Origin: Sporocytophaga sp.
Lineage (GTDB): Bacteria > Bacteroidota > Bacteroidia > Cytophagales > Cytophagaceae
NCBI RefSeq assembly: GCF_017745095.1
Contig: NZ_JAGHZZ010000009.1
Coordinates: 1-64,000 of the forward strand
Direction: 5' to 3'
DNA length: 64,000 nt
Position numbers and translations under genes: made by a program. Below, in pieces: positions 937-12,018 of this stretch (position 1 is its first letter; each line of letters opens with the position of its first letter). The notes beneath the pieces are model-generated. The model had not been told where the DNA came from. It saw nothing but the letters and a program-made list of their open reading frames with translations, and made no database searches.

Positions 937-1449
937 TTAACGGATCATTTTATTTATTACAGGCTTCCCTTCCAGATTAAAATCTCCTTCCAGATCTACC
1001 CATGACTTGCAGCCTCCATATTCCGGAAGTATTTCAATAGTTTGAGGTTCGTTTAGTTTGTAAATCTGAACGATAAGAAGATGTGCTCTTTTCTCCCATC
1101 TTTCAAAGCGTTCCTTAATGATTGCTTCGCTCCATGCATGGAAAGGAAATAATTTGGCAAGTTTGTCCCACTCAGTTATAATCCTGCTGTCCGCAATCTC
1201 AGCAAAATATTCAACCCTAACTTTATCTTGTTCCTTATGAAATTTTTCTGGATCAAAACCTTCAAACCAATCGCTTTTTACTAAGTCTTTTGCCTGATGG
1301 AAGAGGGTGGGGAACAATAAGAATTTTTTTGTTTTAATTTCAAAATCAGAACCTTCTTCATGAATACCTCCTTTTCGGATGATGATGTTCTGTTTGCCTG
1401 TTCCTAAGGCTTCCACTATATATGACCATTCTTTAAATGCAGGAGTCAT
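937..1449 (-). CDS. DUF1802 family protein
   Basis: The protein has 170 residues. The N-terminal pattern AFKEWSYIVEALGTGKQNIIIRKGGI, followed by LFPTLFHQ, is the signature of DUF1802, a cytosolic family of unknown biochemistry found in bacteria and archaea. The ATG at 1449 gives the usual family start immediately before AFKEW, and the length is normal for the family. The gene is monocistronic as far as can be seen, with about 165 bp of AT-rich sequence between it and the divergent FAD oxidoreductase. The family name is firm; the role is unknown. Confidence 0.85.
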   Translation of the reverse strand: MTPAFKEWSYIVEALGTGKQNIIIRKGGIHEEGSDFEIKTKKFLLFPTLFHQAKDLVKSDWFEGFDPEKFHKEQDKVRVEYFAEIADSRIITEWDKLAKLFPFHAWSEAIIKERFERWEKRAHLLIVQIYKLNEPQTIEILPEYGGCKSWVDLEGDFNLEGKPVINKMIR

Positions 1450-1613: not shown

Positions 1614-2729
1614 TTGAAAGATATCATAATCATAGGTGGAGGCCTTGGTGGGCTCATTACTTCCATTTGCCTTGCAGATAAGGGATATGATGTTTTAGTG
1701 ATAGAAAAGAAAGAATATCCCTTTCATAAAGTTTGCGGAGAATACATCTCTAATGAAGTAAAACCTTTTTTGAGCTCAATAGGATTAAAAATTGCCGACC
1801 TTGGCCCTTCAGAAATTAAAAGACTAAAAGTTACTTCTCCGCTTGGTGCGGAAGTAAACATGCAGCTTGACCTTGGGGGATTCGGACTCAGTCGTTATGC
1901 ACTTGATTATGCTTTATATACACTTGCAAAATCAAAAGGAGTAAGTTTTGTCTTAAAAAGGCAGGTTGAAGATGTGAACTTTGAAAACGACATCTTCAAC
2001 GTAAAACTGCAGGATGGCTCAGAGTATTATTCCCATATTGTCGTGGGTAGTTTTGGAAAAAGATCAAACCTTGACAGGCAACTCAATCGCAGATTTTTCT
2101 TTAAAAGGTCTCCTTACATTGGTGTGAAATACCATATCAGGACGGAATTCCCTAACGATCTGATCGCTTTGCATAACTTTAAAGATGGTTACTGTGGTAT
2201 ATCAAAAATTGAAGATAATAAATATTGTCTATGTTATCTGAGCTCAAAAAGTAATCTGAAAGATCATGGAAATATTGAAGAGATGGAGAAAGAAGTACTT
2301 TTCAGGAACAAGCATTTAAAGTACATTTTTGAGCACTCTGATTTTCTATATAAAAAGCCAGAAGTAATAAATGAAATCAGCTTTGAAAGAAAAGAAGCTG
2401 TATCCAATCATCTTTTGTTTTGCGGAGATGCAGCTGGTATGATCTCTCCCCTTTGCGGCAATGGAATGGCTATGGCTATACATTCTTCAAAGATCTTATC
2501 AGAACTTATCTCCACACATTTTGTAAAATCATCTTTAAACAGACAGCTTTTGGAAGATCAATATTCACAAAGGTGGAATGAATTATTTTCAACCAGATTG
2601 TTTGTTGGGAGCCAAATACAAAAATTATTCGGGCAGGACCTGATGACAGAGTTTTCTTTGAGATTCCTGAATACAGCAAAGCCTGTTTTAAGGCAACTTA
2701 TAAAAATGACTCACGGTGACCCATTCTAG
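1614..2729 (+). CDS. FAD-dependent oxidoreductase of the type III PKS locus
   Basis: The protein has 371 residues. A Rossmann dinucleotide fold sits at the very N terminus (IIIIGGGLGGL, residues 4-14), followed by HKVCGEYIS (38-46), the substrate/FAD motif of the geranylgeranyl-reductase/aromatic-hydroxylase flavoproteins. A second FAD motif, LLFCGDAAGMISPLCGNGMA, lies near residues 268-287. The TTG start at 1614 leaves only three residues before the first strand, so it is probably correct. Beside a type III polyketide synthase such an enzyme usually hydroxylates a phenolic ring to a quinol/quinone (compare SrsC next to SrsA in Streptomyces). Reduction of a prenyl chain is the alternative. 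Its last 4 bp overlap the convergent UbiA gene. Family confident; substrate inferred. Confidence 0.85.
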   Translation: MKDIIIIGGGLGGLITSICLADKGYDVLVIEKKEYPFHKVCGEYISNEVKPFLSSIGLKIADLGPSEIKRLKVTSPLGAEVNMQLDLGGFGLSRYALDYALYTLAKSKGVSFVLKRQVEDVNFENDIFNVKLQDGSEYYSHIVVGSFGKRSNLDRQLNRRFFFKRSPYIGVKYHIRTEFPNDLIALHNFKDGYCGISKIEDNKYCLCYLSSKSNLKDHGNIEEMEKEVLFRNKHLKYIFEHSDFLYKKPEVINEISFERKEAVSNHLLFCGDAAGMISPLCGNGMAMAIHSSKILSELISTHFVKSSLNRQLLEDQYSQRWNELFSTRLFVGSQIQKLFGQDLMTEFSLRFLNTAKPVLRQLIKMTHGDPF

Positions 2730-3601
2730 GTATACTTAAGAACGGTAAGGAAGATAAAGAAAGCTATAAATCCTAGAGAGGACAGCATATTCAGTGTCAT
2801 AGTTGATTTGAAATTTGCAGCATTTTCATCCTTTAATACTCTTATAAACCATAGGAGAAAGTAAACCAGAGTGGGCATCATAAATAAAGGAAAAGCGTAA
2901 AGAGCAACTAAAAGATTTTTTGCGATGAAATAATATACAAATCCACCAGAACCAATTGTAAAGACCAACGCTGTCCAGATGAAAGTACCTCTGATTCCAA
3001 GCATTCTGCTAAATGTTTGATCTCCTCTTCTACCATCTTCATTATGCTGATATACTTGAGTCATAGGGTATGATCCCAAAAGGATCAAAGTACAAAGAGA
3101 AGCCGGAAGAATAAGATCATAAAAATTGACATCTGAATATGTCAGTCCGTTAATCGCTAAATAAGACATCAGATAAGTCCAGAGGCCCTGAAAGAAAGAA
3201 ACGACAAGAAGTCCTCCTATTGGATATTTCTTCAATCTTGTAGAAGGATGACTATATGCCTTACTTGCCATTGCGATAATAAAGACCATTAGGGCAAATT
3301 GCCACCCTATAATAAATGAAAGGCCAATCGCTATAAACTCAAATAGTAATGATGTAAAATACAACTCTTTTGAAACAGGGGGAGGATTTTCGATGCCTCC
3401 TATACTTTCTTCATCTTTGTCAAAATAACTATTGTAACCATTGCTTGAGGGATAAAAAAAGAGGTGAATTATAATGAATGAAAGAATCAAATAAGGTATA
3501 TTGGGATTCGGTGATTGGCTTAAAGCAAAGATAAAGAAAGGCATCAAAAAAATTGAGAAGGGAATTCTCAAGTGAATTAATGTTGATTTTTGAATCATCA
3601 T
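2726..3601 (-). CDS. UbiA-family membrane prenyltransferase
   Basis: A polytopic membrane protein of about 291 residues (298 if the TTG at 3622 is used; I prefer the ATGATG at 3596-3601). Two acidic motifs mark it as UbiA-type. The first is NSYFDKDEES in the loop after the second helix, a variant of NDxxDxxxD. The second is YQHNEDGRRGDQTFS, matching the second Asp-rich motif. UbiA enzymes move an isoprenoid chain from its diphosphate onto an aromatic or other acceptor within the membrane. The gene is convergent with the FAD oxidoreductase (4 bp overlap) and divergent from the polyketide synthase, which suggests it prenylates the polyketide product. The variant first motif (Ser and Glu in place of two Asp) leaves donor choice uncertain. 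Confidence 0.85.
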   Translation of the reverse strand: MMIQKSTLIHLRIPFSIFLMPFFIFALSQSPNPNIPYLILSFIIIHLFFYPSSNGYNSYFDKDEESIGGIENPPPVSKELYFTSLLFEFIAIGLSFIIGWQFALMVFIIAMASKAYSHPSTRLKKYPIGGLLVVSFFQGLWTYLMSYLAINGLTYSDVNFYDLILPASLCTLILLGSYPMTQVYQHNEDGRRGDQTFSRMLGIRGTFIWTALVFTIGSGGFVYYFIAKNLLVALYAFPLFMMPTLVYFLLWFIRVLKDENAANFKSTMTLNMLSSLGFIAFFIFLTVLKYT

Positions 3602-3648
3602 TGTTTTAAGAGTTTTTAACAAGATAGATAAAATTTTGTTTCTAAGGA

Positions 3649-4809
3649 ATGAAAAGTTTCATTACAGCGATAGGTACTGCAAATCCCGCATATGGTTTTC
3701 CGCAATTAAAGATAGCGGAGTTCATGTCGGATGCTGTTTCCATGAATGAGGAGGAAAGACAAAGGTTATTTACCTTGTATCGTGCTTCTGGCATAAGACA
3801 TAGATACTCGGTCTTACCTGACTTTGGGACTGCATTTAAGTATTCTGATTTTTTCAAACCAGGAGATAAAGCCCTTATGCCATCTGTGTCTGAAAGGATG
3901 GCTCTTTATAAACAAGAGGCGCTTCCTCTGAGTATCGCTGCAATTGAGAACTGTTTGGATCAATTAGGATCTTTTTCCAAAGATAAAATCACTCATCTTA
4001 TTACTGTTTCATGCACTGGTATGTATGCTCCAGGTCTTGATCTTGATATTGTTCAGTCTCTTGGCTTATCTCATTCAGTGAACAGAACATGTGTCAACTT
4101 TATGGGATGTTATGCTGCATTCTCTGGGATGAAAGTTGCGGACGCTATTTGTAAAGCGGACAAAAATGCTGTTGTATTAATGGTTTGTGTTGAACTTTGT
4201 ACCATTCATTATCAGAAGAGTATGAATTGGGATCACATTCTCTCTAATGCTATATTCGGGGATGGAGCGGCAGCGGTGATTGTTCAGGCTGAAAAATCCA
4301 GCGCACTAGCCTTGAGTCCGGAGTTGTTTTATTGTGATTTACTACCGGAAGGTCGCAAAGACATGGCCTGGTCTATAGCTGACTTTGGCTTCGAAATGAC
4401 TTTATCTTCTTATGTTCCTTCAATGATAAAAAGTGGGATAAAAGAGTTAACAAACAATTTGCTATCAAAGCTTAGTTATAAAGTTGATGAAATAGATTAT
4501 TTCGCTGTTCACCCTGGAGGAAAGAAGATACTGGAAGTAATAAAGGATGAGTTGGAAATTAAGAAGGAAAAATGTCAACAGAGTTTTGACGTGCTTGCTG
4601 ATTATGGGAATATGTCTTCGCCATCGGTACTTTTTGTTTTGAAAAAGATTATGCAGGATTTACAAAACGATCTTTCCTCTAAAAGAATTTTATCATTTGC
4701 ATTTGGTCCTGGACTTACAATGGAATCAATGGTTTTGGAAGTTGTCCCATCAGAATTTACCAAAGCCCTTGAAGATGATAAGGAGTTTATCAATATAGAA
4801 GCAGTATGA
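3649..4809 (+). CDS. Type III polyketide synthase (chalcone/stilbene synthase-like)
   Basis: The protein has 386 residues, normal for the family. The catalytic triad is visible: nucleophile Cys154 in NFMGCYAAFSG, His288 in YFAVHPGGKK and Asn321 in DYGNMSSPSV. The C-terminal FGPGLTMES loop of the thiolase fold is also present. The enzyme condenses an acyl-CoA starter with malonyl-CoA units and cyclises the chain to resorcinols, pyrones or a naphthalene; which one cannot be told from sequence alone. The gene starts 26-47 bp from the divergent UbiA gene and its stop overlaps the methyltransferase start (ATGA), indicating translational coupling. The neighbours suggest a methylated, hydroxylated and prenylated phenolic lipid. 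Confidence 0.93.
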   Translation: MKSFITAIGTANPAYGFPQLKIAEFMSDAVSMNEEERQRLFTLYRASGIRHRYSVLPDFGTAFKYSDFFKPGDKALMPSVSERMALYKQEALPLSIAAIENCLDQLGSFSKDKITHLITVSCTGMYAPGLDLDIVQSLGLSHSVNRTCVNFMGCYAAFSGMKVADAICKADKNAVVLMVCVELCTIHYQKSMNWDHILSNAIFGDGAAAVIVQAEKSSALALSPELFYCDLLPEGRKDMAWSIADFGFEMTLSSYVPSMIKSGIKELTNNLLSKLSYKVDEIDYFAVHPGGKKILEVIKDELEIKKEKCQQSFDVLADYGNMSSPSVLFVLKKIMQDLQNDLSSKRILSFAFGPGLTMESMVLEVVPSEFTKALEDDKEFINIEAV

Positions 4810-5525
4810 GTCGTTTTTTGCAAAGATCAGCAGACCCTGAAATTATGGACGACCTGGAGTTCGAAGGGGAGGTTCTTGGCCAAACGTTAGATGAAATTGA
4901 ATTTATAAATAAATGGTTAGGGGGTAATGCAGTAACGTTGGATGCTGTTAAAAGGGTTATTAAGGAAGGTAAGTTGCAAGCTTCAGATAATTCTATAACT
5001 ATTTCTGATCTCGGATGCGGTGGAGGAGAAATGCTTTCACTCATTTATAAATGGGCACAGTCAAAAAGTATAAAAGTAAACCTTATTGGCATTGATGCTA
5101 ACGACTATGTGGTGAATCATGCAGCAAAAAAAGTTCCTTTAAATAACAGTATATCATTTAAAAAATTTAATGTGCTGGATAAGGATTTCAGAAATGAATT
5201 ATTTGATATAAGCACTTGTACACTTTTTTGTCATCATTTTGAAGATGATGTTTTTGTAGATTTTTTAAAGCAATTGAGGAAACAAACTCGTGTTGCTATC
5301 ATAATTAATGACATTCACAGGCATTGGTTTGCTTATTATTCCATAAAATACCTTACGGGGTTGTTCTCCAAGTCATACATGGTGAAATATGATGCTCAGC
5401 TTTCGGTACTTAGGGCATTCAAGAAAAAGGAACTTGAACTTTTAATTACTAAAGCCGGTTTCGCTAAGTTTGAAATCCGCTGGAAATGGGCGTTTCGTTT
5501 TCAGGTGATTTTGTGGTGTGATTAA
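4806..5525 (+). CDS. Class I SAM-dependent methyltransferase coupled to type III PKS
   Basis: The protein has 239 residues. SAM-binding motif I is SDLGCGGGEML (near residues 60-70) and motif II is the acidic LIGIDAND. A further motif, FDISTCTLFCHHF, follows near residue 138. The ATG overlaps the stop of the polyketide synthase (ATGA), so the two are almost certainly co-translated. By analogy with SrsB/BpsB-type partners of type III PKSs, it would O- or C-methylate the phenolic product. The C-terminal part (residues 165-239) has hydrophobic, aromatic-rich segments (RHWFAYYSIKYLTGLF) that might contact the membrane or a lipid substrate. Methyltransferase assignment firm, substrate inferred. Confidence 0.85.
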   Translation: MSRFLQRSADPEIMDDLEFEGEVLGQTLDEIEFINKWLGGNAVTLDAVKRVIKEGKLQASDNSITISDLGCGGGEMLSLIYKWAQSKSIKVNLIGIDANDYVVNHAAKKVPLNNSISFKKFNVLDKDFRNELFDISTCTLFCHHFEDDVFVDFLKQLRKQTRVAIIINDIHRHWFAYYSIKYLTGLFSKSYMVKYDAQLSVLRAFKKKELELLITKAGFAKFEIRWKWAFRFQVILWCD

Positions 5526-5556: not shown

Positions 5557-6177
5557 TTAGTTTAACCTTCTTTTGAAGCTGCAAAACAAGAAATTTTGCT
5601 TTGTATTAAATGGTGTAATATGATCTTCAGTGATGCACTTCATTTTGTCAAATCCAGCTTCAAGTTCTGCTGTCAATGCTTGTTCATCATACTGTTTTAT
5701 TTCAAGGCCACTGCACTTTGTTGGTCCATCTGTTGAAAAAGTTCCTATAGCTATGTAGCCAGATACACTTTGCTTTACAGTTTCCAGATAATGGGCAATT
5801 TGATCTTTTGTTGTGAGGAAATGAAAGGTTGCTCTATCATGCCAGATGTCGTAGTTTGAAGTAGGCTTAAATTCTGTTATATCACTTACAATCCAGGTTA
5901 CCTTGTCGGCTTTGTCACCCAAGCGATTTTTTGCTTTGTCAAGGGCATTTTTAGAAATGTCAAGAACTGTTATGTTTTCATAACCTTCGTCAAGAAGGTG
6001 ATCCACTAGTTTACTATCTCCACCGCCAATATCAATAATTTTCGCATTCTTAGACAGACCAAATGAATGAATAAAGTTCAATGAAGTGGAGGGAACATCT
6101 TGAGTCCAACTTACCTGGTCAGGAGTTTTCGTTGCATAGACTGTTTCCCAATGTTTTTTATTTGTCTGATTTTCCAT
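5557..6177 (-). CDS. Class I SAM-dependent methyltransferase (unknown substrate)
   Basis: The protein has 206 residues. It begins with KKHWETVYATKTPDQVSW, a common N terminus of a small-methyltransferase group in Bacteroidota. SAM motif I is IIDIGGGDSKLVDHLL (near residues 47-62), then ITVLDIS (motif II) and YDIWHDRATFHFL (post-II/motif IV). It is cytosolic, with no membrane segment. It is convergent with the PKS-linked methyltransferase but belongs to a different subgroup, and I see no reason to place it in the same pathway. The substrate is unknown. Confidence 0.85.
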   Translation of the reverse strand: MENQTNKKHWETVYATKTPDQVSWTQDVPSTSLNFIHSFGLSKNAKIIDIGGGDSKLVDHLLDEGYENITVLDISKNALDKAKNRLGDKADKVTWIVSDITEFKPTSNYDIWHDRATFHFLTTKDQIAHYLETVKQSVSGYIAIGTFSTDGPTKCSGLEIKQYDEQALTAELEAGFDKMKCITEDHITPFNTKQNFLFCSFKRRLN

Positions 6178-6536: not shown

Positions 6537-7859
6537 TTATTGAAGATCATTCAATAATTGGCCGCTTAACCTTTGCAGCTCAATTTCGGCAGTTTTTGCT
6601 GTAAATTGGGCTGAAAGAAGGTTGTTTTCTGCATCGGTAAGTTTTTGCTGGGTAATTCGAAGATCTATATCATTTATATTACCTAGTTTATATCTGCCCA
6701 CTGCAATATTTAAGTCTTTACGTGCTACTTCAACATTTCCAACCTGAATATTTACAAGTTGAATGCTTGTGAGGTAATTGTTATAGTATTTATACAAGTC
6801 ATTTTTAAGAGATAATTTTGTGTCTTCATACAGAGATGTATTTGATTTATATTGAACCTTTGCATTCTGAACATTCAAGGACGTGACACTTCCATTGAAG
6901 ATGTTCATGCTTGCCGTTACCCCGTATGTTAAACCATTGGATTGGTTCAAACGTGCTGGGCTCACTGGGTTTTGGGTTTTTGTATAGTTGTATCCTCCAA
7001 ACACTCCAATTATCGGTAAATATTGGCTACGGAAAGATTCTATATCATATCTGGCAATATTGGCATTTGCTCTGGATGTTAGTAACATTGCATTTTGACT
7101 CTCTAACTTCTCATTAAGATCATTAAAATCAAGCTTTGCATTAATTGGTATTTCTGGCCTTACTTCAAATGCCGTAGTAATTTCACGTGCAAGAAGCCGG
7201 TTAAGATCTGCTTTGGCATTACGGATTAGGGCCGCTTGTTGTAGAAGCCTTGTACTGTCGGCATTTGCATCCACCATTGCCTGATAAATTGCCTGCTCGG
7301 ATCCGGTTCCTATACTTTTCATGCTTTGGGCCAGCTTAAGTCTTTGCAGTGAAAGGCCGATAGCTTCTTGAATCACATACATCATCTTTTGTTGCTGTAC
7401 AATTGAGTAATATGTATTAATGATGTTTGCGACTGTTACTTCAATATCCATACGAGCTTTTGTCTGTCCGGCTCTTTCAAGTTCCTGAAGTTTATTCTTT
7501 GTAATAAACATGTTGAAGCCATCGAATATGGTCCAGTTGACAAGGGCATTAGCAGATATGCTTTTGGGTTTAAGACCGGTTACATCTTTTGCAGGTGTAG
7601 GTGGCTGATATTCTACGTGAGTATTCACAAGGTTGCCGGTATTATTAAAGTTTAAGTCAACCGTAGGTAAAAATCCAGCATTCCCAAGAGTATTGCTATT
7701 TTCTGCTATCTTCTGATTATTCCTTGCAATTATTATGGAATAGTTATTTTCAAGCCCTGTTTCAATAGCTTTTTCAAGTGTCAAAGTATCCTGACAAAAA
7801 GCAGTTAAAAAGCTGGCTGTCGATATAACAGCCAGCATAAAAAATTTAATTTTATTCAT
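6537..7859 (-). CDS. TolC-family outer membrane efflux protein
   Basis: The protein has 440 residues. A signal peptide occupies residues 1-22 (cleavage near FLTAFCQ). The repeated long helical hairpins of the outer membrane efflux (OEP) fold follow, with the typical N-terminal phrase LTLEKAIETGLENNYSI and a C-terminal TDAENNLLSAQFTAKTAEIELQRLSG. It forms the outer-membrane exit duct of an RND pump. It is the last gene of the operon: its ATG lies inside the end of the RND gene (8 bp overlap), so it is translationally coupled to the pump. Length and repeat layout are normal. Confidence 0.93.
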   Translation of the reverse strand: MNKIKFFMLAVISTASFLTAFCQDTLTLEKAIETGLENNYSIIIARNNQKIAENSNTLGNAGFLPTVDLNFNNTGNLVNTHVEYQPPTPAKDVTGLKPKSISANALVNWTIFDGFNMFITKNKLQELERAGQTKARMDIEVTVANIINTYYSIVQQQKMMYVIQEAIGLSLQRLKLAQSMKSIGTGSEQAIYQAMVDANADSTRLLQQAALIRNAKADLNRLLAREITTAFEVRPEIPINAKLDFNDLNEKLESQNAMLLTSRANANIARYDIESFRSQYLPIIGVFGGYNYTKTQNPVSPARLNQSNGLTYGVTASMNIFNGSVTSLNVQNAKVQYKSNTSLYEDTKLSLKNDLYKYYNNYLTSIQLVNIQVGNVEVARKDLNIAVGRYKLGNINDIDLRITQQKLTDAENNLLSAQFTAKTAEIELQRLSGQLLNDLQ

Positions 7860-10800
7860 ATGAATATTCTATCTTTTTAGGCTCTTCTTTAACTTCTTTC
7901 TTTTTATTCTTCTTTCTGGATAAGAATGTGTACATCGCCGGAATTACATACAAGGTCAGGATTAAAGAAAACAATAATCCTCCGATAATTACAAGTCCCA
8001 TCGGGATACGGCTTTTAGCGCCAGCCCCAATAGCAAATGCAATCGGAACTGCTCCCAGAATAGTTGCAAGACTGGTCATTAGGATTGGTCTTAAACGTGC
8101 TGCTGCTGCCTCACGTGCTGCATCCATTACAGATAATCCTTCTTCTATTTTATGATTCGCAAATTCTACAATCAAGATACCATTTTTGGTTACCAGACCA
8201 ATTAATATAATAATACCAATCTGGCTGAAAATATTTAATGTCTGTCCAAACGCATACAAAGTTATAAAAGCTCCGGCAAGTGCTAGTGGTACGGTTAACA
8301 TAATTACCAGCGGATCTATAAAACTTTCAAATTGCGCAGACAAAATAAGATAGATAAGTACCAGCGCCAAAGAAAATGCAAATAGAATATTTGAAGAACT
8401 TTCGGCAAAATCCCTTGATGGTCCGCTCAGACTGGTGCTGAAGGAATCGTCTAGCAGTTTTTTGGAAATCTGGTCCATGGCTTCAATTCCATCCCCAATG
8501 GTTTTGCCAGGAGCAAGTCCGGCAGATACTGTTGCAGATTTATATCTGTTAAAGTGATAAAGTTGGGGTGGACTATTCGTTTCCTCTATTTTCACCAGAT
8601 TGTCCATTTGAACAGGAACTCCGTCTTTGTTTTTCACATACAGCGAACTCAGATTCAATGGCTGATCACGGTTTGCCCTGTCAAGCTGACCGATAACCTG
8701 ATATTGTTTTCCATTCATGTTAAAATAGCCAAACCTCTGCCCACTAAACGATAATTGAAGAGTCTGAGCAATATCACTCACAGAAACGCCAAGCGCTTTG
8801 GCTCGTTCTCTATCAGGTTTTACAATAAGCTCAGGCTTGTTGAATTTTAGGTTAACATCAAAGCCCATGAATGTGGGGTTTTTCCCTACTTCTTCCATGA
8901 ATTTAGGAAGTACAGAAGACAGTTTTTTAAAATCAGATGACTGGATAACATACTGTACCGGAAGTCCGGACTTGGCGGCGCCCCCACCGCCACTGATCGT
9001 CTGTTCCTGAACGACGAAGAGTTTGGCAGATGGGAAAGACTTCAGATTTTTGGATAAGTAATCTGCAATCTCCTGCTGCGACCTGTTCCTGTCATGAGGA
9101 TCTGTCAATGCTATTCTGAATATACCCGTATTCATGGCTCCGGAACCTGAGAATCCCGGTGCTGTGATGGTCATAGCAATTTTATTTTCAGGTACGGAAT
9201 CTTTGATGAACTTAGATACATTGTCCATGTAGTTAAGCATGTAATCAAATGAAGTACCTTCAGGTGCCGTTGCAGAAACTCTGAGTACACTTCTATCATC
9301 AAGTGGTGCCAGCTCTGACTGAAGATTTCCTTTGATATATCCGATAGTTCCTAATGATGCAAGAAGTATGATAATTGCAACCCATCTTACATTCAGAAAT
9401 TTTCCCAGAGAGCGACTGTATAGATTGGTCATCCCAACAAAGAAAGGTTCAGACCATTCATAGAAGCGTGTTCTCTTGGTATGGTTTTTTCTAGCCAGTT
9501 TTACATTCAACATTGGCGTAAGTGTAAGAGATACAAATGCTGATATAAGTACAGCACCTGCAACCACGATACCGAATTCCCGGAATAATCGACCTACAAA
9601 GCCTTCAAGAAATATAATCGGAAGAAACACTACAGCGAGAGTTATGGAAGTTGATATTACCGCAAAGAAGATTTCTTTGGAACCTTCATGAGCAGCATTT
9701 AACGGATCCATGCCTTCCTCAATTTTTTTGTAAATATTTTCCGTGACGACTATACCGTCGTCGACTACGAGACCTGTGGCAAGAACTATTGCAAGTAAGG
9801 TTAGAATATTAATAGAAAATCCTGCAACATACATGATAAAGAATGCCCCAATAAGAGATACAGGGATATCTATCAAAGGTCTGAAAGCAATAAGCCAGTC
9901 GCGGAAGAACAAATAAATGATGATAACCACAAGTACGAATGCGATGATCAGTGTTTCCTGGACTTCCAGTATAGATGTCTTAATGAATCTCGTGTTATCA
10001 AGAGCGATGTCCATCTTGTAATCATTAGGAAGATCTTTTTTTATCTGGTCGAATCGCTTGTGAAACTCGTTGGCAATTTCAATATAGTTTGCTCCTGGTT
10101 GGGGCACCACACCAAGACCAATCATTGGAATGCCAGATTCCTTAAGCATGGTGTTTTCATTCTCTGCACCTAAAGTAGCCCTTCCGATATCAGACAGCTT
10201 AATAATTCTGGTTCCATCGTTTTTAATGATAAGGTTATTGAACTCATCTTCTGTGGTAAGTCTTCCCATCGTCCTTACGGAAAGTTCAGTAGCATAACCT
10301 TCAATTTTACCACTAGGAAGTTCTACATTTTCTTTGTTCAATGCACCCCACACGTCGGCAGCTGTTAGCTGATAGGAGGCCAGTTTAAATGGGTCCATCC
10401 AAATCCGCATAGCATATTTTTTCTGTCCCCAAATCTGTACAGTACTTACACCTGGAATTGTCTGGAGCCTTTCAAGCACCACGTTTTCGGCATAGTCGCT
10501 CACTTCAAGCTGACTTCTGGTATTGCTTTGCAGGGTAAGAGCTATGATGGCATCAGAATTTGCATCTGCTTTTGTAACAACCGGAGGACCATCAATATCC
10601 AAGGGAAGAAAGCGAACCGCTTGAGAAACCTTATCCCGAACGTCATTCGCTGCAGTTTCAAGATCTGCATCTAGATTAAATTCAACAGTGATGCTGCTTG
10701 TTCCTGTGCTGCTTGAAGAAGAGATGGATCTGATACCCGCGATTCCGTTGATACTTTTTTCCAATGGTTCCGTGATCTGCGATTCTATAATATCAGCATT

Positions 10801-10962
10801 GGCACCAGTATAGGATGTCTTAACTGTAATGACGGGAGGGTCAATGGATGGGAATTCCCGTATACCCAGGTATTTATAGCCGATGAGTCCGAATAGTACA
10901 ATGACTATGGACATCACGGTTGCCAGAACAGGGCGGTTTATACTTACAGAAGAAATATTCAT
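7852..10962 (-). CDS. RND efflux pump inner-membrane permease (AcrB/HAE1 type)
   Basis: The protein has 1036 residues, the full length for the family. It starts with SVSINRPVLATVMSIVIVLFG, the first transmembrane helix, followed by the large periplasmic porter loop, helices 2-6, a second loop and helices 8-12. The proton-relay Asp pair is present in LATGLVVDDGIVVTENIY, matching the AcrB helix-4 motif. The C terminus is a charged Lys/Glu tail. It uses the proton gradient to export drugs, bile-like compounds or lipids. It lies 6 bp after the adaptor gene and overlaps tolC by 8 bp. Which compound it exports is not visible. Confidence 0.95.
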   Translation of the reverse strand: MNISSVSINRPVLATVMSIVIVLFGLIGYKYLGIREFPSIDPPVITVKTSYTGANADIIESQITEPLEKSINGIAGIRSISSSSSTGTSSITVEFNLDADLETAANDVRDKVSQAVRFLPLDIDGPPVVTKADANSDAIIALTLQSNTRSQLEVSDYAENVVLERLQTIPGVSTVQIWGQKKYAMRIWMDPFKLASYQLTAADVWGALNKENVELPSGKIEGYATELSVRTMGRLTTEDEFNNLIIKNDGTRIIKLSDIGRATLGAENENTMLKESGIPMIGLGVVPQPGANYIEIANEFHKRFDQIKKDLPNDYKMDIALDNTRFIKTSILEVQETLIIAFVLVVIIIYLFFRDWLIAFRPLIDIPVSLIGAFFIMYVAGFSINILTLLAIVLATGLVVDDGIVVTENIYKKIEEGMDPLNAAHEGSKEIFFAVISTSITLAVVFLPIIFLEGFVGRLFREFGIVVAGAVLISAFVSLTLTPMLNVKLARKNHTKRTRFYEWSEPFFVGMTNLYSRSLGKFLNVRWVAIIILLASLGTIGYIKGNLQSELAPLDDRSVLRVSATAPEGTSFDYMLNYMDNVSKFIKDSVPENKIAMTITAPGFSGSGAMNTGIFRIALTDPHDRNRSQQEIADYLSKNLKSFPSAKLFVVQEQTISGGGGAAKSGLPVQYVIQSSDFKKLSSVLPKFMEEVGKNPTFMGFDVNLKFNKPELIVKPDRERAKALGVSVSDIAQTLQLSFSGQRFGYFNMNGKQYQVIGQLDRANRDQPLNLSSLYVKNKDGVPVQMDNLVKIEETNSPPQLYHFNRYKSATVSAGLAPGKTIGDGIEAMDQISKKLLDDSFSTSLSGPSRDFAESSSNILFAFSLALVLIYLILSAQFESFIDPLVIMLTVPLALAGAFITLYAFGQTLNIFSQIGIIILIGLVTKNGILIVEFANHKIEEGLSVMDAAREAAAARLRPILMTSLATILGAVPIAFAIGAGAKSRIPMGLVIIGGLLFSLILTLYVIPAMYTFLSRKKNKKKEVKEEPKKIEYSYE

Positions 10963-10968
10963 AGCAGA

Positions 10969-12018
10969 TTACTTGGATAAGGTTATGTTTACCTTCAGGC
11001 TGTCTTTTAATTGCATGATACCTGAAGTAATTAATGTGTCTCCAGCATTCAGACCTTCGGTTATCTGAATGGAAGAGTCGTTACGCACGCCAGTTTTTAC
11101 ATTTTTGGAAATAGCATAACCTTGTTTATAAACAAATACTTTTGAGCCATTTTGCATGGGTACAATTGACTGTGTAGGAGCCATGATAGCTTGAGCGTCT
11201 TTTTGTAACAAGAGATCAATTTTAATAAATGACCCAGGTCTCAAACTGAAGTCTTCATTTGAAGATCTTGCACGCACTTTTAAAGTTCTTGTAGCTACAT
11301 CTACCATAGGTTCCGAAGCATATACTGTACCATTATAAATCTTGTCAGATCCGGTTACAGTAAACTTTATATCAGAACCTTTCTTGACAAAAGCACCATA
11401 TTTTTCAGGAATATCGAATTCAAGCTTAATGGGATCTATTTGCTGAAGAGAAGCTATAACAGTAGTAGGAGAAACAATTTCACCTTCACTCACATAGCGT
11501 AGTCCTATTATCCCACTGAATGGTGCTTTCACTTCAGTTTTACGCAATTGAGCAGATAATAAGTCCAGATCTGCATGCAGGGTACTTGCTTGGTTGCTGG
11601 CAATGTCATATTCTTCCTGGCTAATACCACCTATTTCGAGGAGCTTCCTTTTACGCTCTTCTTCTCTGTTAGCTAGTTCTTGTTGAAGCTTGATCTTTTT
11701 ATATTGAGCTCTGAGTTCTTCATCAAAAATTTTTACAAGAAGTGTTCCTTTGGAAACTTTTGCATCTTCTTTAAAATGAATCCCTGTTACTCTACCGGAT
11801 ACCTCACTTCTAAGATCTACTTTTTCATTTGAAAGTATAGTTCCTATAATTTCTATCTTATTGTCCACCTCTTCAGGCTTAAGAATTAAGCCTGTGATGG
11901 ATAAAGGAGGTGTATCCTTTGGCCCACGGATCTCTTTGGCTTTTTTGCCGGAGGATGTGCAGGACCAGATAGTGGCCAAAATAAAAATAGCGGGAAATAT
12001 GGTGGTTCTGATACTCAT
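10969..12018 (-). CDS. RND efflux periplasmic adaptor (MFP) lipoprotein
   Basis: The protein has 349 residues. The N terminus has a hydrophobic segment ending in IWSC with a lipobox cysteine at residue 20, so it is probably a lipoprotein. Next come the barrel-sandwich (lipoyl) half motif (SNEKVDLRSEVSGRVTGIHF), a helical hairpin of about residues 100-150, the second lipoyl half (VKAPFSGIIGLRYVSEGEIV) and beta-barrel/membrane-proximal domains. It links the RND pump to the TolC channel. It lies 10 bp after marR and 6 bp before the pump gene. Confidence 0.93.
   Translation of the reverse strand: MSIRTTIFPAIFILATIWSCTSSGKKAKEIRGPKDTPPLSITGLILKPEEVDNKIEIIGTILSNEKVDLRSEVSGRVTGIHFKEDAKVSKGTLLVKIFDEELRAQYKKIKLQQELANREEERKRKLLEIGGISQEEYDIASNQASTLHADLDLLSAQLRKTEVKAPFSGIIGLRYVSEGEIVSPTTVIASLQQIDPIKLEFDIPEKYGAFVKKGSDIKFTVTGSDKIYNGTVYASEPMVDVATRTLKVRARSSNEDFSLRPGSFIKIDLLLQKDAQAIMAPTQSIVPMQNGSKVFVYKQGYAISKNVKTGVRNDSSIQITEGLNAGDTLITSGIMQLKDSLKVNITLSK

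Follow-up and report, generated by a model that had tools for sequence, protein, structure and literature searches.

The window analysed here comprises 64,000 nucleotides (nt) at the start of a 278-kb contig (NZ_JAGHZZ010000009.1) from the 6.63-Mb genome of a Sporocytophaga sp. (assembly GCF_017745095.1), a member of the Cytophagales within the Bacteroidota. Near its left end lies a compact locus encoding a flavin adenine dinucleotide (FAD)-dependent oxidoreductase, a UbiA-family prenyltransferase, a type III polyketide synthase (PKS) and a methyltransferase (MT). Our comparison across genomes establishes these four genes as a real unit. The locus is laid out as follows.

1614-2729, + strand: FAD-dependent oxidoreductase (FAD enzyme; 371 amino acids, TTG start) of the geranylgeranyl-reductase/QhpG-like class, probably ring-oxidising
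2726-3622, - strand: UbiA-family membrane prenyltransferase (298 amino acids, TTG start; alternative ATG at 3601)
3623-3648: divergent UbiA/PKS gap of 26 nt, or of 47 nt (3602-3648) if UbiA starts at the ATG
3649-4809, + strand: type III PKS (386 amino acids) with Cys154-His288-Asn321 and Trp241
4806-5525, + strand: class I S-adenosylmethionine-dependent MT (239 amino acids), translationally coupled to the PKS gene through an ATGA

The four open reading frames are intact and touch one another in the way an earlier, sequence-only reading of this DNA had described, with a stop-to-stop overlap of 4 nt between the FAD and UbiA genes (2726-2729) and an ATGA at the PKS/MT junction (4806-4809). Unless the two transcription starts lie inside the genes, both must fall within or overlap the gap of 26 or 47 nt that separates UbiA from PKS. 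Across relatives' loci, the head-to-head UbiA/PKS gap has a median of about 71 nt (59 loci, start codons guessed), the tail-to-tail FAD-UbiA gap is at most 17 nt in 30 of 46 loci and exactly -4 in 12, and the PKS-MT gap is at most 7 nt in 46 of 51 loci (MT starts guessed). A scan for promoter-like and terminator-like sites gave no signal (15 vs 16.6 expected and 4 vs 2.8 expected, respectively). An arrangement in which a transcript runs through a reversed gene is termed a non-contiguous operon, and such a transcript through the reversed UbiA gene is possible.

The strongest evidence for a functional unit is the distribution of the genes among relatives. Our sample consisted of 39 genomes, the host included, and the threshold for a PKS orthologue was E < 1e-50. 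PKS orthologues are present in 30 of the 39 genomes, two further genomes having weak matches only (1e-4 to 1e-5), and UbiA matches occur in exactly the same 30 genomes and in no other. With relatedness ignored, the Fisher p-value for this co-occurrence is 5e-9 over genomes and 7e-8 when each genus is counted once (21 of 30 genera with both). The FAD enzyme is found in 28 of the 30 genomes (absent from G016 and G032) and the MT in 27 (absent from G022, G028 and G032); one genome, G035, has the MT alone. PKS-centred stretches of 14-15 kb, taken from 29 relatives and the window (n = 30), hold all four genes in 12 cases, UbiA together with PKS in 21, and PKS alone in 6. The sequence-only reading had proposed a search for the set in relatives, where it recurs over many genera, and had named, as the case that counts against the pathway, relatives that keep PKS and MT together but have the FAD and UbiA genes at other places. 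All six relatives whose PKS stands alone still carry UbiA at another place in the genome, five of them also the FAD enzyme and three the MT. A search of 72,556 plasmids at an E-value of 0.01 gave no match to this UbiA.

A broader set of 247 Bacteroidota genomes gave profile matches to PKS in 115 (E ≤ 1e-30), UbiA in 39 (1e-20), FAD enzyme in 59 (1e-30) and MT in 96 (1e-15). The UbiA matches split into 19 at E < 1e-80 and 20 at 7e-34 to 8e-44, the latter all from family f40. All 19 genomes with a strong UbiA match contain PKS and FAD enzyme, 18 contain the MT, and in 14 the PKS and UbiA genes lie within 600 nt of each other. The remaining PKS-bearing genomes lack this UbiA, many having PKS-MT-FAD or PKS-MT.

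A UbiA profile scan of named genomes, one per species, returned at least 592 stretches, of which at least 578 were confirmed; the best 80 were taken as loci, many of them on cut contigs. All four genes are present in 39 of these, MT-PKS-UbiA in 12, PKS-UbiA in 6, UbiA-FAD in 5, PKS-UbiA-FAD in 2 and UbiA alone in 16, and the carriers include Chryseolinea, Algoriphagus, Marivirga, Fulvivirga, Ohtaekwangia, Larkinella and Emticicia. The reversed UbiA gene, earlier thought unusual for a single pathway, turns out to belong to the commonest arrangement: the order and orientation of the window recur in all 39 full sets among the 80 loci. The four genes are co-directional in six relatives (G004, G010, G012, G014, G015, G017) and in G071 and G101. 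Since full sets occur in both forms, the orientation has changed while the set was kept. Recurrence over many genera, together with genome-wide co-occurrence, rules out chance adjacency; the four-gene set of the Bacteroidota is real, conserved and widespread.

The domain content of the proteins agrees with the assignments above. In Pfam, the PKS matches Chal_sti_synt_N and Chal_sti_synt_C (102.9 and 94.3 bits vs a cut-off of 27) and UbiA matches PF01040 (55 bits vs 34.2), and the FAD-binding and methyltransferase domains of the other two proteins are confirmed. In NCBIfam, no listed model reaches its curated cut-off with any of the four proteins: the best are DpgA for the PKS (154.7 of 425 bits), PRK12884 for UbiA (42.2 of 269 bits, its only match), PRK06202 for the MT (124.3 of 243 bits) and, within the best 25 of 74 models for the FAD enzyme, the geranylgeranyl reductase family TIGR02032 (100.9 bits, cut-off 158.8).

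We examined 107 PKS homologues, 93 of them close or strong, in a set in which some genomes are represented twice. The catalytic triad, noted as intact in the earlier reading, is kept across the close homologues, with Cys154 and His288 in 93 of 93 and Asn321 in 92, the remaining one having a gap. Trp241 is likewise present in all 93, its place being taken by Phe in three PKSs of the f24 type, a different subfamily. The predicted PKS structure (pLDDT 86.6) has as its nearest structural neighbours 4b0n, 7cb3, PKS18 and the Cannabis tetraketide synthase. Trp241 aligns with a Trp of the Phyllobacterium PKS, which aligns in turn with a Trp of PKS11 and with Tyr224 of the tetrahydroxynaphthalene synthase THNS. 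The PKS11 residue has been equated with Trp281 of ArsB (PMC9927152), and exchange of ArsB Trp281 for Gly diverts resorcinol to pyrone formation (PMC6274091). The window PKS thus carries, as Trp241, the Trp found at ArsB position 281 in resorcinol formers. This position was mapped indirectly through the Phyllobacterium enzyme, with ArsB itself unaligned, because ArsC is absent among the structure and sequence matches listed. An alkylresorcinol is the best reading of the predicted PKS product.

The predicted UbiA structure (pLDDT 93.6) matches archaeal UbiA proteins first. Its superposition with 4tq4 gives a Z-score of 23.1 and a root mean square deviation of 3.7 over 273 aligned residues; other UbiA structures score Z 16-23 and isoprenyl diphosphate synthases about 14. 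Both Asp-rich motifs are present in variant form (N64-S65-x-x-D68-x-D70 and Q192-x-x-x-D196-x-x-x-G200-D201), and the named residues are invariant in 20 members. Weak matches of 11 family members are spread over PRK12884 (8), chlorophyll synthase models (7), a geranylgeranylglyceryl phosphate geranylgeranyltransferase model (4) and a MenA model (2). We rejected an identity with MenA: the window protein has no NCBIfam MenA match, and the two members that match one MenA model do so weakly (best E 1e-5). Counting this one, the host genome contains seven UbiA-family places, along with two places for polyprenyl synthases; another of its UbiA-family genes (L172) reads like a MenA. EboC/Ubi-297 was also rejected, the neighbours being FAD enzyme, PKS, MT and DUF1802, with no ebo-like family among the recurrent ones. 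Ubi-297/EboC of marine Bacteroidota, Algoriphagus included, resembles the window protein in having a UbiA fold apart from menaquinone and heme synthesis, but it belongs to the ebo cluster, prefers quinolines and carries the motif DXXDXXXD (PMC9235831); the window UbiA, in contrast, has an N-S-x-x-D-x-D-x-x-x-I-G motif and accompanies a PKS. A further UbiA-family place of the host genome (L175, contig 61) adjoins a putative relative of dehydroquinate synthase and reads as ebo-cluster-like.

In Actinoplanes missouriensis, agqA-D are reportedly genes for a PKS, a methyltransferase, a flavoprotein and a UbiA protein. AgqA-made alkylresorcinols are prenylated and hydroxylated there (PMC10896814), and the product is named alkyl-O-dihydrogeranyl-methoxyhydroquinone in the title of Awakawa et al. 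2011, cited by the same paper. With prenylation and hydroxylation following alkylresorcinol formation by a type III PKS, and a methoxy group in the product name, the agq system has all four kinds of step, contrary to the earlier statement that known relatives share only part of the set. Its likeness to the window, namely PKS, methyltransferase, flavoprotein and UbiA together, is one of enzyme class only; agq comes from an actinomycete, whereas the Bacteroidota set mostly has a reversed UbiA gene. The combination of enzyme classes is therefore not new, the agq logic being already known.

Other systems combine a PKS, an MT and an FAD enzyme, among them hidABC, the planctomycete operons, pkqABC and srsABC. 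Type III PKSs from planctomycete MT-FAD-PKS operons make alkylresorcinols, with 58 of 96 PKS genes located in such operons (PMC10896814). Cyanobacterial hidABC leads to hierridins with an alkylresorcinol core (PMC10896814, PMC8086630), and one cyanobacterial hierridin-like cluster has been reported with a prenyltransferase (PMC8086630). Actinobacterial PKS-MT-oxidoreductase operons yield polyketide quinones, including benzoquinones in Streptomyces and mycobacteria (PMC9927152). Four of ten plasmid loci examined, from Psychrobacter, Deinococcus, Methylobacterium and Sphingobium, carry a PKS/MT/FAD module, differing from the window in that no UbiA gene is annotated; of the remaining six loci, five show a type III PKS in another context and one is an unannotated record. 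The loseolamycin locus of Micromonospora endolithica has UbiA-family and methyltransferase genes just before the PKS gene losA, the UbiA-family gene lying three genes ahead of it, but an acyl-CoA dehydrogenase occupies the slot of the FAD enzyme, and unprenylated alkylresorcinols were isolated after activation of losA (PMC7587189). Within the Bacteroidota, only an antiSMASH type III PKS class is reported for Marivirga (PMC11225308), and type III PKS clusters are reported for Flavobacteriaceae (PMC7440613). We found no description of the UbiA/type III PKS set in Bacteroidota, of its UbiA or of its product in the one open-licence library searched, judged mostly from listings.

Taken as one pathway, the four genes would make a membrane-located prenylated phenolic lipid or quinone, a reading to which we assign a probability of roughly 0.6. 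The PKS would load a fatty acyl thioester, probably long-chain, add malonyl units and close an alkylresorcinol. The MT and the flavoprotein would methylate and oxidise the ring to a methoxy-hydroquinone or quinone, by analogy with the three-gene module of other phyla, and UbiA would attach an isoprenoid chain, either on the ring or on a hydroxyl group, after or before ring methylation and oxidation. Gene content and integrity, co-occurrence, linkage, conserved active-site residues and predicted folds are its direct basis; we infer the chemistry throughout. The single pathway postulated in the sequence-only reading is thus backed by co-occurrence and conserved linkage, and its proposed product, a prenylated, methylated and oxidised phenolic, stands as the likeliest.

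Several observations weigh against this reading. Three-gene PKS/MT/FAD modules function without UbiA elsewhere, PKS, FAD enzyme and MT are present in many of the 247 Bacteroidota genomes that lack this UbiA, and the FAD enzyme or the MT is missing from some relatives. No partner is seen in the DNA examined at 16 of the 80 UbiA loci, nine of which extend the full 8 kb to either side. The UbiA motifs are non-standard, and the top score of the FAD enzyme, though below the cut-off, is to geranylgeranyl reductases. Thr144 and Ala148, which we take to be tunnel residues of PKS18, are both kept in the window PKS, and the listed tunnel residue Cys205 (PMC6274091) is kept as Cys184, but S143, N208, A209 and L266 of PKS18 correspond to Cys122, His187, Tyr188 and Trp241. 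A long acyl tunnel is therefore not proved, so we infer the long-chain starter mainly from the related modules, and the four changes slightly lowered our confidence in the pathway as drawn. Finally, PKS11, which has the same Trp, is reported to make pyrones (PMC6274091), so that this residue is not decisive.

The FAD enzyme might alternatively act in the same pathway by reducing the isoprenoid chain after UbiA, yielding an alkylresorcinol that is methylated and prenylated and whose chain is partly saturated. TIGR02032 as the best model and the dihydrogeranyl group in the agq product speak for such a role, which we nevertheless consider unlikely. The next model, QhpG (77.5 bits), is a monooxygenase by name, and FAD enzymes of the window type (470, 438 and 432 bits to the FAD profile) occur in three f24 loci without UbiA (L076-L078). 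More distant relatives stand beside PKS and MT in Sphingobium (131 bits), Methylobacterium (74) and Psychrobacter (72), with no UbiA annotated nearby. In Deinococcus and f40, the slot is filled by flavoproteins of 31 and 44 bits, respectively, whose best models are UbiH-like and other monooxygenases. Such an exchange of one kind of flavoprotein for another in a single slot suggests ring oxidation as the common role.

A second alternative, which we regard as quite improbable, is an alkylpyrone as the PKS product, to be methylated, oxidised or prenylated by the remaining enzymes. For a UbiA enzyme, a pyrone would be an unusual substrate. PKS18, PKS11 and the M. marinum enzyme, which resemble the window PKS closely in structure, are of the pyrone or long-acyl type, and PKS11 shares the Trp, but position 241 is occupied by Leu in both PKS18 and M. 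marinum 7cb3, and the planctomycete PKSs from PKS/MT/FAD operons yield alkylresorcinols. That UbiA belongs to a separate pathway and merely adjoins the PKS module is very improbable: although such modules function without it in other phyla, its gene is reversed in the window and 16 of the 80 UbiA loci show no partner, PKS and UbiA track each other exactly in the 39 genomes, also when non-adjacent, and UbiA is co-directional with the other genes in several lineages.

Beyond the prenylated phenolic lipid or quinone itself, it is conceivable, if doubtful, that members of the Cytophagales carry a second isoprenylated quinone beside menaquinone, with a ring derived from a type III PKS rather than from chorismate, in the role of an alternative electron carrier or of a redox lipid in the membrane. 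Such a compound would be comparable to the polyketide quinones found in Streptomyces and mycobacteria, except that it would bear a true prenyl tail. That the genes are retained together even where scattered over the genome would suit a lasting physiological role better than a mobile secondary-metabolite cassette. If the four-gene pathway is as read here, a common environmental order would produce a phenol or quinone in its membranes for which no description from this group exists. The compound would matter for how these bacteria respire, lie dormant or cope with stress, and its genes would be a bacterial source of enzymes for prenylated resorcinols like cannabigerol or grifolin.

Related arrangements were noted in other genomes. 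UbiH/PHBH-like monooxygenase genes adjoin PKS and MT in f40 (L063:4181-5341) and Deinococcus (L166:6818-7960). The three loci of f24, taken for Flavobacteriaceae (L076:2982-9547, L077:4431-9804, L078:4703-10199), combine FAD-MT with the PKS subfamily that has Phe at position 241, followed by FabZ-like, ketoacyl synthase II, acyl carrier protein (ACP) and phosphopantetheinyl-transferase genes; gene families were checked for L076 and assigned by clustering for L077 and L078. By analogy with Azotobacter ArsA, these downstream genes perhaps furnish acyl-ACP specifically for the PKS. This UbiA also occurs in metagenome bins that bear the names Thalassovita, Candidatus Anammoxibacter and Thalassobius (L088, L092, L109, L110), with all four genes in both Anammoxibacter loci; mis-binning or mislabelling seems likelier here than transfer.

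A fifth pathway gene was considered and rejected: no further family recurs as widely among the stretches of the 29 relatives and the window, only the four families being widespread, DUF1802 adjoins the FAD gene in two genera, and an efflux pump gene is near the set in the window's genus and in G005. The DUF1802 gene of the window (937-1449) has counterparts next to the FAD gene in G001-G003 and also in G007, G013 and G018, three genomes that belong to a different genus. Just downstream of the locus, on the opposite strand, lies a second class I methyltransferase gene (5557-6177), found at the same place only in G002 among the relatives' loci. Elsewhere in the host genome, contig 22 encodes a second chalcone-synthase-like protein (L061:3159-4286), about 30% identical to the window PKS and above the Pfam cut-off. 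Three genes at 6537-12018 of the window read like a resistance-nodulation-division (RND) efflux system. Export of the product by it is conceivable, without support elsewhere: the pump gene is 95-99% identical at the same place in G001-G003, a 54% identical one lies nearby in G005, and the RND protein of G004 is just 23% identical to that of the window.

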